A DNA stretch of 64,000 nt from Sinorhizobium meliloti (GTDB lineage Bacteria > Pseudomonadota > Alphaproteobacteria > Rhizobiales > Rhizobiaceae). The position numbers and the translations under genes are program-made. Numbering within the stretch: the stretch's first letter is position 1; the number at the start of each line of letters is the position of its first letter. The notes beneath the pieces are model-generated. The model was given only the letters and a program-made list of their open reading frames with translations, was not told the DNA's origin and made no database searches. This document shows, one piece after another, positions 20,877 to 31,767 of this stretch. The stretch is from contig NZ_CP141212.1 of the NCBI RefSeq assembly GCF_035610345.1, forward strand, positions 2,645,001 through 2,709,000, given 5' to 3'.

Positions 20877-23588
<2,712 letters not shown>

Positions 23589-23631
23589 CCGCGCGGTGCT
23601 GCGCGTCCGGTCGGGCGCGCGAACGATTGTC

Positions 23632-23655
23632 TGCCTGCCACTGACATGGCAGGCA
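23632..23655 (+). other. 9-bp stem-loop upstream of the exporter leader
   Basis: TGCCTGCCA (23632-23640), 6-base loop, TGGCAGGCA (23647-23655). There is no T tract after it, so it is not a clear secA terminator. It may be part of the 5' end of the exporter leader RNA or an operator site; the sequence does not decide. Confidence 0.5.
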
Positions 23656-23691
23656 ACTTACCTCACCTCAAGATGCGCATGGAGCCGTAGC

Positions 23692-23721
23692 ATGGGAGCT
23701 CAAAAGTCCTCGGACAAGTAA
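23692..23721 (+). CDS. Nine-residue leader peptide of the phenicol exporter
   Basis: ATG at 23692 opens a 9-codon frame, M-G-A-Q-K-S-S-D-K, ending TAA at 23719-23721. GGAG at 23681-23684 is 7 bases upstream, a better ribosome site than the exporter's own. The CmlA leader peptide, as I recall it, is also nine residues, M-S-T-S-K-N-A-D-K; Lys5, Asp8 and Lys9 align, and Ser7 replaces the Ala at the position before Asp. Chloramphenicol stalls ribosomes when Ala, Ser or Thr is next to last in the chain, so stalling with codon 8 in the P site is expected. It was read by eye; there is no other support than position, ribosome site and the RNA fold after it. Confidence 0.72.
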   Translation: MGAQKSSDK

Positions 23722-23816
23722 GCCGCAACAACGCTTTTTCCTTGTTGTTGCGGCGTCTGTCGAGCCGACCCCCGTGCCGAAGGCAGACCGCCGCCGAATG
23801 TTCCTCATTTGAGCGG
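23722..23816 (+). promoter_or_regulatory. Four-segment translational attenuator of the exporter gene
   Basis: Immediately after the leader stop: segment 1 (23722-23733) pairs with segment 2 (23743-23754), 12 bp with one G-U. Segment 2 (23750-23761) pairs instead with segment 3 (23782-23794), 12 bp with one bulged C. Segment 3 (23791-23800) pairs with segment 4 (23806-23816), 10 bp with one bulge and one G-U, hiding GAGCGG just upstream of the exporter ATG at 23827. With no drug, 1:2 and 3:4 form and the ribosome site is closed. A ribosome stalled on leader codon 8 would cover segment 1, letting 2:3 form and open segment 4. No T tract follows any hairpin, so control would be of translation, not termination. 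Confidence 0.7.
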
Positions 23817-23826
23817 ATGTCTTTCC

Positions 23827-25026
23827 ATGCCTACACAACCTCATGTCTGGCGCTATTCGCTGCCGGCAGCGCTGCTGCTGATGGCGCCTTTCGATATCCT
23901 CGCCTCCCTGGCCATGGATATCTATCTCCCGATCGTTCCGGCGATGCCCGGTATTCTCGGGACCAGTCCTGCCGTGGTTCAGCTCACGCTGAGCCTCTAT
24001 ATGGTGATGCTCGGCCTCGGCCAGATCGTCTTCGGGCCCGTCTCCGATCGCATCGGACGGCGGCCTGTCCTGATCGGCGGAGCGATGCTGTTCGCCGCGG
24101 CGTCGTTCTGCCTTGCGGCATCCTCCAGCGCCATACCATTCGTCGCTTTCCGCTTCCTGCAGGCGGTTGGCGCATCTGCGGCCCTGGTGGCCACCTTTGC
24201 GACGATCCGGGACGTCTATGCCGACCGCCCGGAAAGCACGGTTATCTACAGCCTGTTCAGTTCCATTCTGGCATTCGTTCCCGCTCTGGGACCGATAGCC
24301 GGCGCCATGCTGGCGGAGAGGTTCGGATGGCGTTCGATCTTCGTTACGCTCGGTGCATTTGCCGTAATCGCGCTGGTGCAGGCACTGCCTCGCTGGCATG
24401 AATCCCGCCCTTCGGCGGCCGCGCTGCCGCGGTGCACGTTCGGGCCCCTTTTCCGCAGCCTCGCCTTCTGGACCTATACCCTCGGCTTCAGCGCCGCCAT
24501 GGGCACGTTTTTCGTGTTCTTTTCCACCTCTCCGCGCGTTCTGATCGACAGGGCGGGATATTCGGAGCTGCAGTTCAGCCTCGCCTTTGCAACTGTAGCA
24601 ATCGTGATGATCATCACGGCGCGCTTTGCCAGGCGGTTCGTCTCCCGATGGGGAACTTCGGGCAGCCTCCTGCGGGGCATGTGCATGTTGCTTCTCGGGG
24701 CGGCGCTCCTGGCCGCCGGGCAGAGCTTCGGCACCCCTTCGTCCTGGACGTTCGTCGCGTCGATGTGGGTCATGGCGGTCGGCATCGTCTTCACCGGATC
24801 GGTAACTGCAAACGGCGCGCTCGAAGGGTTCGGATACATGGCGGGTTCGGCGGTCGCAGTCTATTTCTGCGTCCAAAGCCTCATCGTCGGGACGGCGGGA
24901 ACACTGCTCGTGATCGGACTGCCGGGCGACAGCGCGTGGCCGCTCGTGGTCTATGCCTCGACAATGGCCGGTGTCGTGCTGATCGCGCGCCGGCAGTTGC
25001 CGTCCAGAAGGCACGCCCAGGCATGA
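23827..25026 (+). CDS. CmlA/FloR-family phenicol efflux MFS transporter
   Basis: A 399-residue, 12-helix major facilitator exporter. The opening PAALLLMAPFDILASLAMD, then QLTLSLYMVMLGLGQ, GPVSDRIGRRPVL, FRFLQAVGASAALVATFAT, and GTFFVFFSTSPRVLI match FloR and CmlA almost block for block as I remember them, much more closely than generic Bcr/CflA pumps. The G-x3-D-R-x-G-R-R loop motif and the motif C region (FVPALGPIAGAML) are intact, so drug/H+ antiport should work. Likely substrates are chloramphenicol and florfenicol; this is by homology. Start at ATG 23827; a TTG at 23809 is in frame but lies in attenuator segment 4. G+C and codon use match the neighbours, suggesting an old chromosomal gene rather than a recent cassette. 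Confidence 0.9.
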   Translation: MPTQPHVWRYSLPAALLLMAPFDILASLAMDIYLPIVPAMPGILGTSPAVVQLTLSLYMVMLGLGQIVFGPVSDRIGRRPVLIGGAMLFAAASFCLAASSSAIPFVAFRFLQAVGASAALVATFATIRDVYADRPESTVIYSLFSSILAFVPALGPIAGAMLAERFGWRSIFVTLGAFAVIALVQALPRWHESRPSAAALPRCTFGPLFRSLAFWTYTLGFSAAMGTFFVFFSTSPRVLIDRAGYSELQFSLAFATVAIVMIITARFARRFVSRWGTSGSLLRGMCMLLLGAALLAAGQSFGTPSSWTFVASMWVMAVGIVFTGSVTANGALEGFGYMAGSAVAVYFCVQSLIVGTAGTLLVIGLPGDSAWPLVVYASTMAGVVLIARRQLPSRRHAQA

Positions 25027-25146: not shown

Positions 25147-26568
25147 GTGTTCATGGCGGTATGTCAATCGGCCGGACGAATGCTGCCGTCGGCGCTGAGA
25201 TATCGCCTGCCTCTTCTCGTGCACGGCCTCGCGTCGCTTCTTGCGGGGGACGATCCCAGGAACCGTGCACAGCGCGTGGCGCTCATCGCCTTTCTGATCC
25301 GTATCGTCAGCGCAGCCATCGCCTTCGTCTCGCAAATCGTCCTTGCGCGCCTCGTCGGCGAGTTCGAATACGGCATCTTCATTTTCGTCTGGGTGCTGGT
25401 CGTCCTCTTCGGAAACCTGTCCTGCCTCGGTTTCCATGCGACCGTGATCCGCTTTCTGCCGGAATACCATACGAGCGCGGCGCTTGCGAACATCCGCGGT
25501 CTGACCACGACGGCGCGCGTCTTTGCGATGCTTTCCGCGACTGTTCTCGCCGCAGTCGGCGGAGCCGGCCTCTGGCTCTTCGGCTCCGCCATCGAAAGCT
25601 ACTATGTGGTTCCCCTCTATCTCGGCCTGTTCACTCTGCCGATGATCGCGCTAGGCGACGTACTGGACGGCACCGCGCGGGCGCATAGCTGGCCCATCGT
25701 CGCGATGAGCCCGACCTATCTCGTGCGGCCGCTGCTGATCCTCGGTTTCATGGTCATCGCGATCGCTGCCGGGCTTCCGCGCAATGCGACGACAGCCATG
25801 GGCGCTGCGCTGGGGGCGGCCTATGTCACCACGCTCGGACAATTCGTGACGATGGCATGGCGGCTCCGCCGCCATTACGTGCGCGGGCCGATGAAGATCG
25901 AGCTCGGGCGGTGGCTCAGCGTCTCCCTTCCCATTTTTCTGGTCGACGGTTTCGGTTTCCTGCTCACCAATTCCGACGTCGTCATCGTGGGCCTCTATCT
26001 CAATCCCGACGATGTGGCGGTTTATTTTGCGGCGGCCAAGACCATGGCGCTCGTCCATTTCGTGATGTTCGCGGTCAAGGCGGCAGCAGGTCCGCGTTTC
26101 TCTGCGGCAATGGCCGCAGGCGATCGCCGGCAGCTGGCGGAAATCGCCGTCGAAAGCGCGCGCTGGTCCTTCTGGCCGTCCCTGGCGATCGGCGGCTGCG
26201 TACTCGCAGCCGGCAACATCCTGCTTTCGCTGTTTGGCCCGGCCTTCACGGCGGGCGCCCCCTTGATGGCGATCCTGCTGACGGGAATTCTCGCCAAGGC
26301 CTTCGTCGGACCCGCCGAAACGCTGCTCACGATGGCGGGGCGGCAAAAGCTCTGCGTCCTGCTCTATGCGGCTGCGCTCGGAGTCAACATCGCCTTGAAC
26401 GTGACACTCATCCCGGTCTTCGGCCTGACGGGCGCAGCTGCCGCCACTGCCGGCGCGATGTTCGTGGAGGCAGCCATCCTGCATTTCGCCGTAAGGCGCA
26501 CTTTCGGCTTTCCCCTGCTGGCCGTTGCCGGCGCGGGGAGCGTGAACAACAAGAACGAGGCGATTTGA
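25147..26568 (+). CDS. Polysaccharide flippase (Wzx/MATE-like exporter)
   Basis: A 473-residue inner-membrane protein with about 12-14 predicted helices and the pattern of polysaccharide transport proteins: an early RIVSAAIAFVSQIVLARLVGEFEYGIF block (LARLVG-x-YG is typical), a second repeat with IFLVDGFGFLLTNSDVVIVGLYL, and a final GLTGAAAATAGAMFVEA. These proteins flip lipid-linked sugar units across the membrane. The start is GTG 25147 or ATG 25153. Only 3 bases separate it from the following acetyltransferase-like gene. There are no glycosyltransferases nearby, so the glycan is unknown. Confidence 0.88.
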   Translation: MFMAVCQSAGRMLPSALRYRLPLLVHGLASLLAGDDPRNRAQRVALIAFLIRIVSAAIAFVSQIVLARLVGEFEYGIFIFVWVLVVLFGNLSCLGFHATVIRFLPEYHTSAALANIRGLTTTARVFAMLSATVLAAVGGAGLWLFGSAIESYYVVPLYLGLFTLPMIALGDVLDGTARAHSWPIVAMSPTYLVRPLLILGFMVIAIAAGLPRNATTAMGAALGAAYVTTLGQFVTMAWRLRRHYVRGPMKIELGRWLSVSLPIFLVDGFGFLLTNSDVVIVGLYLNPDDVAVYFAAAKTMALVHFVMFAVKAAAGPRFSAAMAAGDRRQLAEIAVESARWSFWPSLAIGGCVLAAGNILLSLFGPAFTAGAPLMAILLTGILAKAFVGPAETLLTMAGRQKLCVLLYAAALGVNIALNVTLIPVFGLTGAAAATAGAMFVEAAILHFAVRRTFGFPLLAVAGAGSVNNKNEAI

Positions 26569-26571
26569 GCC

Positions 26572-27843
26572 ATGATCGGCAATGTCCTTCCCGCAGACGT
26601 GAACGGCAGCGCCAACCGCCTGCTTGGCAGCCTCGCGCAATCGGGTTCCGATACGTTGCAGTCCGAGCGGACATTGATGGTCGGAAGGCCCGGACGGCAC
26701 CTCGCGGTCTATCCGGCGAGAGCGGGATACGACCTGCAGCGGGAGCTCGACTTTCTCTCCAATCGCGCCATCGAGCAGAACGTCTTCTTTACCGGGCGCT
26801 TTCTCGCGCCCGCCATGCCGCGCCTCGAGGACCGGGTAATCCGGCTTGCGGTCATCCGCGACCGAAACGAACAGAGAAGCCGAATCCGCTTTCTCATGCC
26901 GTTCTCGATAGAGAAGCCGGGTTTTTCGATCGGCGCGACCATTATTCGCGCCTGGTCCAATCCTTTCGGGCCGCTGGGCACGCCCCTCCTCGACGCGGAG
27001 GACGCGGCCGAAACGATCAGCAATCTTTACGAAGCGCTGGCCGCGCCTTCCGCCGGCCTGCCGCCGGTGCTTGTGCTTCCGGACATCAGGTTGAACGGCA
27101 AATTTGCGCAGCTTGCCCGTGCCGTCGCGATCGGCGAAAACCTGCCGCTGACGGTGACGGATACATTCAGCCGGCCGATGCTCGAAAGCCTGCTGGACGG
27201 CCCCACCTATTTGCGCGAGGCCGCGGGCCCCCAGCGCCTGAGGGAGCTGAAGCGGCAGTGGAACAATCTCGCGAAGCAGGGATCGCTGGCCTACAATGTC
27301 GCGCGCCAACCCGATGAGATCCGCCTGCGCATGGAGGAGTTCCTGGTCCTCGAAGCGTCCGGCTGGAAAGGCCGCGAACGCAGCGCCATGATCATGGACC
27401 GGTTCCGCGCCGCTTTCGCGAGGGAAGCGGTAAACAATCTGGCCGAGGCCGACAGCGTCCGCATTCACACGCTCGATCTTGACGGCAAGGCGATCGCGAC
27501 CATCGTCGTTCTGCTGATGGCCGGCGAAGCCTATGCCTGGAAGACCGCCTATGACGAGCGCTATGCGAAATACTCTCCGGGCAAGCTGCTTGTCGCGGAG
27601 CTCACGGAGTGGCATCTCGACGATGCCAATATCATCCGCTCCGACTCCTGCGCCGTGCCCGATCATCCGGTGATGAGCCGCCTGTGGCAGGAGCGAGAGG
27701 AAATGGGCACGCTCGTGATCGGGCTGGCACAGAACCGCGACCGCGACGTGCGTCAGGTCGCCGCGCAGCTCCACCTTTATCGCAATACCCGAAACATGGC
27801 CCGGCTGCTGCGTGAAAAGATCCGGGCGCTGGCAGGCCGCTGA
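26572..27843 (+). CDS. GNAT/BioF2-like acyltransferase family protein
   Basis: A 423-residue protein whose second half is the GNAT-like domain seen in FemAB/CelD-type proteins: WNNLAKQGSLAYNVARQPDEIRLRMEEFLVLEASGWKG and LDGKAIATIVVLLMAGEAYAWKTAYDERYAKYSPGKLL, the latter being the catalytic-fold block. The N-terminal half (LDFLSNRAIEQNVFFTGRFL) matches the same family. It is coupled to the flippase gene 3 bases upstream, so it may acylate or otherwise modify an exported glycan; the substrate is unknown. It ends 15 bases before the convergent acyl-CoA synthetase gene. Confidence 0.82.
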   Translation: MIGNVLPADVNGSANRLLGSLAQSGSDTLQSERTLMVGRPGRHLAVYPARAGYDLQRELDFLSNRAIEQNVFFTGRFLAPAMPRLEDRVIRLAVIRDRNEQRSRIRFLMPFSIEKPGFSIGATIIRAWSNPFGPLGTPLLDAEDAAETISNLYEALAAPSAGLPPVLVLPDIRLNGKFAQLARAVAIGENLPLTVTDTFSRPMLESLLDGPTYLREAAGPQRLRELKRQWNNLAKQGSLAYNVARQPDEIRLRMEEFLVLEASGWKGRERSAMIMDRFRAAFAREAVNNLAEADSVRIHTLDLDGKAIATIVVLLMAGEAYAWKTAYDERYAKYSPGKLLVAELTEWHLDDANIIRSDSCAVPDHPVMSRLWQEREEMGTLVIGLAQNRDRDVRQVAAQLHLYRNTRNMARLLREKIRALAGR

Positions 27844-31682: not shown

Positions 31683-31767
31683 TGGTGCCCCATGCCGGAG
31701 TCGAACCAGCACTCCTTTCGGAACTCGATTTTGAGTCGAGCGCGTCTACCAATTCCGCCAATGGGGC
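31683..31767 (-). tRNA. tRNA-Leu (anticodon CAA)
   Basis: Class II tRNA of 85 nt with encoded CCA (31683-31685). Acceptor stem: 5' GCCCCAT (31767-31761) with ATGGGGC; anticodon stem CTCGA/TCGAG with loop CTCAAAA, so the anticodon is CAA reading UUG; T arm GGTTCGACTCC. The long variable arm fits leucine. Confidence 0.96.

Follow-up and report, generated by a model that had tools for sequence, protein, structure and literature searches.

A conserved cmlA-type translational attenuator predicted ahead of a patchily distributed chromosomal exporter gene of Sinorhizobium meliloti

The exporter locus and its leader peptide

The window analyzed here, a stretch of 64 kb from a Sinorhizobium meliloti genome of 6.63 Mb in four contigs, carries an MFS exporter gene between secA and a gene for a wzx/MATE-like membrane protein, with the start of the exporter taken as ATG 23827 (Table 1). 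Ahead of the exporter lie a nine-codon leader ORF and four segments that can pair in alternative ways, referred to below as the putative attenuator. The closest named match to the exporter was from S. meliloti 4H41 (96%). The protein scored 633.8 bits against the NCBIfam CmlA/FloR equivalog NF033134, above the curated cut-off of 450, and 553.7 bits against the strict FloR model NF000219 of NCBIfam, below the curated cut-off of 700, and is hence FloR-like and not FloR. The original prediction of a "FloR-type" exporter therefore holds for the CmlA/FloR family and not for FloR in the strict sense. Its choice of a phenicol exporter as the target agrees with the family assignment, from which a role in phenicol resistance or transport is predicted.

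Table 1 Features of the exporter locus in the window.
Feature	Position	Strand	Basis or remark
secA, 5' neighbour, outside the switch	20877..23588	+	NCBIfam SecA
Leader Shine-Dalgarno GGAG, 7 bases 5' of ATG	23681..23684	+	sequence
Leader ORF, ATG at 23692, nine codons (M-G-A-Q-K-S-S-D-K), TAA 23719-23721	23692..23721	+	sequence, conservation
Presumed position of drug stalling (P site Asp8, A site Lys9, next-to-last residue Ser7)	23710..23718	+	A or S, then D or T, then any residue in 81/81 leaders; stalling predicted
Segment 1	23722..23733	+	pairing, covariation
Segment 2	23743..23761	+	23743-23754 with segment 1; 23750-23761 with segment 3
Segment 3	23782..23800	+	23782-23794 with segment 2; 23791-23800 with segment 4
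Segment 4, overlaps exporter ribosome-binding region	23806..23816	+	pairing, covariation
Likely exporter Shine-Dalgarno core GGA, 9 nt 5' of ATG	23815..23817	+	read by eye
CmlA/FloR-family exporter (MFS), 399 aa	23827..25026	+	NCBIfam NF033134, Pfam MFS_1
wzx/MATE-like membrane protein, 3' neighbour, outside the switch	25147..26568	+	NCBIfam/Pfam profile matches

PADLOC gave no match, and a reading as a defence gene was dropped. At the gathering score, the sole Rfam match in the 64-kb window was a tRNA, with none at the attenuator, and searches of four loci (L001, L054, L151, and L038) at E up to 0.1 gave one match, away from the attenuator; a reading as a known Rfam element was dropped on these results. 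A tRNA gene is located at 31686-31767 on the minus strand. The wzx-like gene is adjoined by a gene for a GNAT-domain protein (26572-27843), which scored 563.8 bits to NCBIfam T4SS_GNAT_BspF, under the cut-off of 775.

The leader MGAQKSSDK and the GGAG seven bases upstream of it were borne out base for base. For comparison of upstream regions, 110 loci were collected, of which 80, retained from 189 relatives, came from named genomes and 30 from a draw of the family (30 of the 47 genomes with an exporter match), and these reduced to 82 distinct regions. A leader frame directly 5' of a stem starting with GCCGC was kept in 81 of the 82 distinct regions, which argues that the arrangement of leader and first stem is not due to chance. 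The conservation of leader codons and stems in related regions, proposed beforehand as a check, was thus found; the exception was the region of a floR-like gene in Flavobacterium (L087), which had a differing upstream region without a leader.

Leader counts were made on the 81 regions separately from the alignment described below, in which a few rows start inside the leader. Shine-Dalgarno-like strings, searched with a permissive pattern, were present 5–15 nt 5' of the leader start in 76 of the 81. When the furthest in-frame ATG within ten codons was taken as the start, the leaders had nine codons in 70 regions, eight in 7, and ten in 3, and the ATG was lost in the L031 leader, for which an in-frame GTG would give MKSSDR. 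Two leaders, L023 and L029, had a changed stop codon (TAC and TAT, respectively); their frames enter segment 1, and the stall site is kept.

Of the 81 leaders, 48 had Ala and 33 had Ser as the next-to-last residue, as predicted, followed in the presumed P site by Asp (79 leaders) or Thr (2). The leaders ended in Lys (47) or Arg (27) in 74 cases and in other residues in seven, never in Gly. Chloramphenicol was reported to arrest ribosomes with Ala, and less so with Ser or Thr, next to last in the peptide (PMC8987054, PMC8066774), and arrest was reported to be absent with Gly in the A site (PMC8066774). Every leader (81/81) matched this context rule. Seven different Lys and Arg codons were used at the last position. 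Of the 48 Ala codons at the next-to-last position, 47 were GCA, suggesting that part of the leader conservation may act at the RNA level. Leader codons 7–8 (GCAGA) could pair with UCUG after segment 2 in 85.3% of cells, a pairing that showed no double changes and was no better than in shuffles.

The same peptide context would also suit a leader that senses other peptidyl-transferase drugs, such as oxazolidinones, or general translation stress in place of phenicols, as oxazolidinones share the Ala/Ser context and linezolid was reported to stall in it (PMC8987054). We consider this unlikely, since the target is a CmlA/FloR-family exporter and relatives of cmlA and floR were reported to be induced by chloramphenicol or florfenicol. 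Phenicols are accordingly kept here as the candidate inducers. In a Ribo-seq paper on S. meliloti (PMC10117765), chloramphenicol and floR were absent from the main text; the lengths named there begin at 10 aa, so that a 9-aa leader may fall outside its search.

Pairing segments and their conservation

The four segments and their pairings 1:2, 2:3, and 3:4 were all confirmed in position as originally predicted. Stem 1:2 had 12 of 12 standard pairs, including one G-U, stem 2:3 had 12 pairs with one bulged base, and stem 3:4 had 10 pairs with one bulged A. Competition between the segments can be seen by eye in their shared motifs, which are GCCGC in segments 1 and 3, GCGGC in segment 2, and GCGG in segment 4. 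The fold of 23685-23840 had an energy of −64.5 kcal/mol, compared with −42.5 kcal/mol (sd 3.55) in 200 dinucleotide shuffles (z = −6.2), of which none was as good. For the reality of the element, conservation is more decisive than folding energy.

Conservation was assessed in an alignment (A1) of 80 of the 82 distinct regions, comprising 79 distinct rows and omitting L087, which is without a leader, and L103, the leader of which lies at about −197. Compensatory changes were seen in stems 1:2 and 3:4, which together paired in 93.6% of cells of A1, with 9 doubly changed pairs versus 3.9 in shuffles (0/500 as high), and pairing fell to 30–55% when the partner was shifted by 1–3 columns. A1 was further thinned to 46, 29 (under 80% identity), and 9 rows. 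The doubly changed cells versus shuffles were then 4 vs 0.5, 4 vs 0.7, and 2 vs 0.4 for stem 1:2, and 15 vs 6.0, 8 vs 2.9, and 2 vs 0.9 for stem 3:4, respectively. These excesses were clear at 46 and 29 rows (0/1000 shuffles each) and weak at 9 rows (37/1000 and 215/1000 shuffles for 1:2 and 3:4, respectively). RNAalifold on the whole alignment gave stem 1:2 alone, and stem 3:4 was tested as a named stem.

Stem 2:3 paired in 93.0% of cells of A1, compared with 91.7% in shuffles (0/500 as high), and its covariation was not significant, with 3 doubly changed pairs versus 2.0 in shuffles (122/500 as high). The thinned alignments gave doubly changed cells of 3 vs 2.8 (46 rows) and 1 vs 1.7 (29 rows), and a paired share as high as that observed was reached in 2/1000, 61/1000, and 277/1000 shuffles at 46, 29, and 9 rows, respectively. 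The part exclusive to 2:3 had an energy of −7.46 kcal/mol with its own partner versus −6.97 kcal/mol with swapped partners across 53 distinct pairs (7/2000 permutations as good, with relatedness uncorrected). Covariation, which had been suggested as a check on all three stems, was therefore found in two of them, while in 2:3 it is the pairing that is conserved.

The layout of 1:2, 2:3, and 3:4 is also known from transcription attenuators, in which case leader stalling would control a terminator ahead of the exporter. However, 0 terminator-like sites were found in 23560-23860, where 0.3 were expected, segment 4 is followed by ATGTCTTTCC, without a T run, and stem 3:4 covers the ribosome site. 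Because no intrinsic terminator was found before the exporter, transcription attenuation was rejected, and we give it a very slight probability. Control at the level of translation is the reading followed below. No promoter was recognised in 23560-23860.

The calculated switch and comparison with known attenuators

The element is very probably a cmlA-type translational attenuator that would be induced by phenicols. When the drug is absent, segment 1 would pair with segment 2 and segment 3 with segment 4, burying the ribosome-binding region of the exporter, as suggested by folding. A phenicol-bound ribosome on the leader would stall once Asp8 occupies the P site, with Ser7 as the next-to-last residue, hiding ~7 bases of segment 1 and thereby freeing segment 2. 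The freed segment 2 would take segment 3, releasing segment 4 together with the exporter start, and the exporter would then presumably pump the drug out.

A stalled ribosome covers RNA up to 15 bases downstream of the first base in the P site, which corresponds to ~7 bases of segment 1. In equilibrium folds of the 80 sequences, stem 1:2 was formed in 80, stem 3:4 in 65–68, and stem 2:3 in none. With the bases under the stalled ribosome removed, stem 2:3 was formed in 63/80 when the RNA ended at the start codon and in 51/80 when 18 nt of the exporter gene were included. For the S. meliloti locus sequence, with segment 1 masked and the 18 nt included, the probability of stem 2:3 was 0.29; as 2:3 is marginal at equilibrium with 18 nt of the gene, the model needs co-transcriptional folding.

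By computation, the rest structure of 1:2 plus 3:4 hides the exporter ribosome site. The cost of opening the stretch from the Shine-Dalgarno sequence to the start, calculated without the leader, fell from a mean of 9.72 to 5.44 kcal/mol in the 80 sequences when 7 nt of segment 1 were hidden, with a fall of more than 1 kcal/mol in 73 sequences and no fall in three; at the S. meliloti locus the cost fell from 11.3 to 5.2 kcal/mol. With the leader included, a calculation that also counts the lost leader pairing, the mean cost fell from 11.24 to 5.44 kcal/mol (mean fall 5.81, 80/80 falling), compared with a mean fall of 1.15 in 320 shuffled controls, 41% of which still fell by more than 1 kcal/mol. 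The accessibility of the Shine-Dalgarno sequence rose just from 0.17 to 0.24–0.28. A first accessibility measure, later replaced, rose in 59/80 sequences, with a rise of more than 0.2 in 10/80.

A similar calculation for cmlA1, with a slightly different opening window, gave a fall in opening cost from 12.0 to 6.8, and the same calculation gave falls from 8.6 to 5.6 for plasmid floR (L152) and from 6.6 to 6.0 for floR2 (L153). In the mobile floR of the L054 type, the most frequent mobile floR region among the fetched loci (16/110), hiding 7 nt made opening no easier (9.3 to 9.8), and hiding all of segment 1 gave a cost of 8.4. For this allele, the result argues against a switch that works simply at equilibrium.

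The resemblance to the CmlA leader, which had been pointed out in the original prediction, was confirmed by reading the cmlA1 leader MSTSKNADK from a plasmid record (L151). For cmlA, in an integron cassette of Tn1696, two alternative stem-loops were described (Stokes and Hall 1991, as given in the review PMC8876359). The S. meliloti element is like cmlA in having a 9-aa leader, ending in A-D-K in cmlA, with a stem immediately behind, alternative stem-loops that would hide or free the exporter start, and a CmlA/FloR-family exporter as the target. In contrast to the integron cassette of cmlA1, the S. meliloti element is chromosomal. It also differs in its S-D-K leader end and its four-copy GCCGC/GCGG switch, whereas cmlA1 starts with GTG and its ribosome site, AAGGAG, is hidden by another 3:4 sequence, as judged by eye.

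Such control had been taken as described for cmlA and cat genes, which is incomplete, as mobile floR had earlier been proposed to have a similar leader (PMC5890775, PMC8256890). In ICEApl2 and pAR060302, floR was reported to be preceded by a leader of 9 aa and an inverted repeat of 11 bp and to be induced by chloramphenicol in RT-PCR, and an 8-fold florfenicol rise in E. coli was cited in the same paper, according to which the stem and the floR ribosome site do not overlap (PMC5890775). A leader and stem were likewise reported for floR-T1/T2 (PMC8256890); there, one sentence has the stem blocking the ribosome site and another has no overlap with it, and the part of the stem in induction was called not clear. 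The floR leader MGNSKSADK (L152/L153) has nine residues, and its stem is equal to 1:2. For floR, scores of 122.7–124.9 bits were obtained with our covariance model, the rows of which include near-identical floR regions. Unlike in the S. meliloti element, no segments 3 and 4 were named for floR in the available portions of PMC5890775 and PMC8256890.

The S. meliloti switch may supply the missing half of the proposed floR switch. Its chromosomal relatives show segments 3 and 4 with compensatory changes, which makes the floR question directly testable. Likeness extends to the attenuators of ermC and cat in that leader stalling frees a hidden ribosome site; these have other leader peptides, and ermC differs in the drug sensed and cat in having an enzyme as the target. 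Judged by title and abstract start, the matches listed in a literature search that left most subscription journals outside included neither a fuller attenuator model for floR nor a treatment of this gene in rhizobia.

Distribution and possible origin of the element

At E ≤ 1e-100, the exporter was found in 5/33 genomes of the genus and in 47/297 genomes of the family. At all five genus loci, secA and the wzx-like gene flanked the exporter with its leader and stems. In exporter-less genomes of the genus, secA and wzx were neighbours, 127–433 bases apart, in 25/25 fetched loci, drawn from 27 genomes with a wzx match and without the exporter. The original description of a rhizobial core gene was dropped in view of this patchy occurrence and of the adjacency of secA and wzx where the exporter is lacking. 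Exporter and sensor seemingly moved as a unit.

Insertion between secA and the wzx-like gene in only part of the genus (5/33) would also be expected of a relic, in which exporter and attenuator were acquired from another lineage and the switch is dead in the present host. The marginal 2:3 pairing at equilibrium in the S. meliloti sequence and one genome (G108:C9) with a bare attenuator and an exporter remnant are in line with such a history. However, leader and stems were intact in 5/5 exporter-bearing genus genomes despite drift of the exporter to 88% identity, and we regard a dead switch as highly improbable. By sequence and calculation, the chromosomal, patchily spread exporter appears to carry a real and conserved translational attenuator of the cmlA type, with a predicted response to drugs.

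We searched the 297 family genomes with a covariance model (R1) of the element. Matches at E ≤ 0.01 were found in 50 genomes, 44 of them below 1e-9. The strong matches covered 43 of the 47 exporter-bearing genomes, including 13 of the 17 exporter genomes that gave the model no row, and the 44th (G270) was the same element before an exporter with its frame in two pieces. The four exporter genomes without a strong match belong to one genus and have exporters of 53–55% identity. Six genomes had weak matches alone (E 1.8e-4 or worse), and the weak match in G026 resembles a terminator hairpin by eye. In a draw of the class, searched with stricter filters, R1 matched 1/385 genomes, its own genome only; the element was therefore not seen across Alphaproteobacteria in that draw.

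Several individual loci departed from the common arrangement. The four loci with exporters of 53–55% identity (L187–L190) had longer leaders with S-A-T-R followed by a self-complementary stem, as seen by eye, the stem differing in sequence in three of the four, and a hairpin was seen near the exporter start. At L186 (G108:C9:11779-11934), a second element of genome G108, a full attenuator with the leader METMQTADR had just the first exporter codons behind it. Segments 2 to 4 without a leader or segment 1, seemingly a relic, were found at L192 (G290:C4:408540-408634).

The named loci included Microvirga, Mesorhizobium, Rhizobium, Agrobacterium, a 480-kb Myxococcus contig, and mobile floR copies. 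An exporter protein tree was built from 87 rows, after 8 had been dropped for a stop inside the matched stretch. In this quick and unfinished tree, which has many open forks, the Sinorhizobium clade was placed beside Neorhizobium and Microvirga, and mobile floR nested inside the Hyphomicrobiales exporters.

We see about an even chance that the attenuators of mobile floR and cmlA derive by capture from an ancient chromosomal phenicol sensor native to soil Hyphomicrobiales, with one four-segment switch shared among them. Segments 1 and 3 would then compete for segments 2 and 4 (GCCGC vs GCGG in the FloR-like group), and segments 3 and 4 would be the unrecognised link between the floR leader and its ribosome site. 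If so, the movement of gene and sensor as a unit would suggest long-standing selection by natural phenicols or similar soil drugs. The presence of exporter and sensor at the secA/wzx-like site in part of Sinorhizobium, along with the position of mobile floR in the quick tree, would place the sensor in soil bacteria and suggest that gene and sensor jointly came from soil Hyphomicrobiales. With 81 natural leader variants, material is at hand for examining how drug sensing may be tuned by peptide context and RNA pairing.

Among plasmid records, 2,985 matched the leader-stem stretch to some extent at the permissive E value limit of 10, a number to be taken as an upper guide, as the matches spanned 80% of the stretch in just 7 records. 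Four plasmid records were opened, of which three carried cmlA1, floR, and floR2 with leaders and one was from Sinorhizobium. The latter (L154, NZ_CP104131.1), labelled plasmid pK101a of Sinorhizobium sp. K101, had a leader stretch 100% identical to that of S. meliloti; the length of the record, 3.5 Mb, suggests a chromosome rather than a plasmid. A Comamonas locus (L056:2831-3012) had a cmlA-type leader, MSTSKNADK, and upstream region joined to a floR stem and gene, a natural hybrid with its join near the shared leader end.
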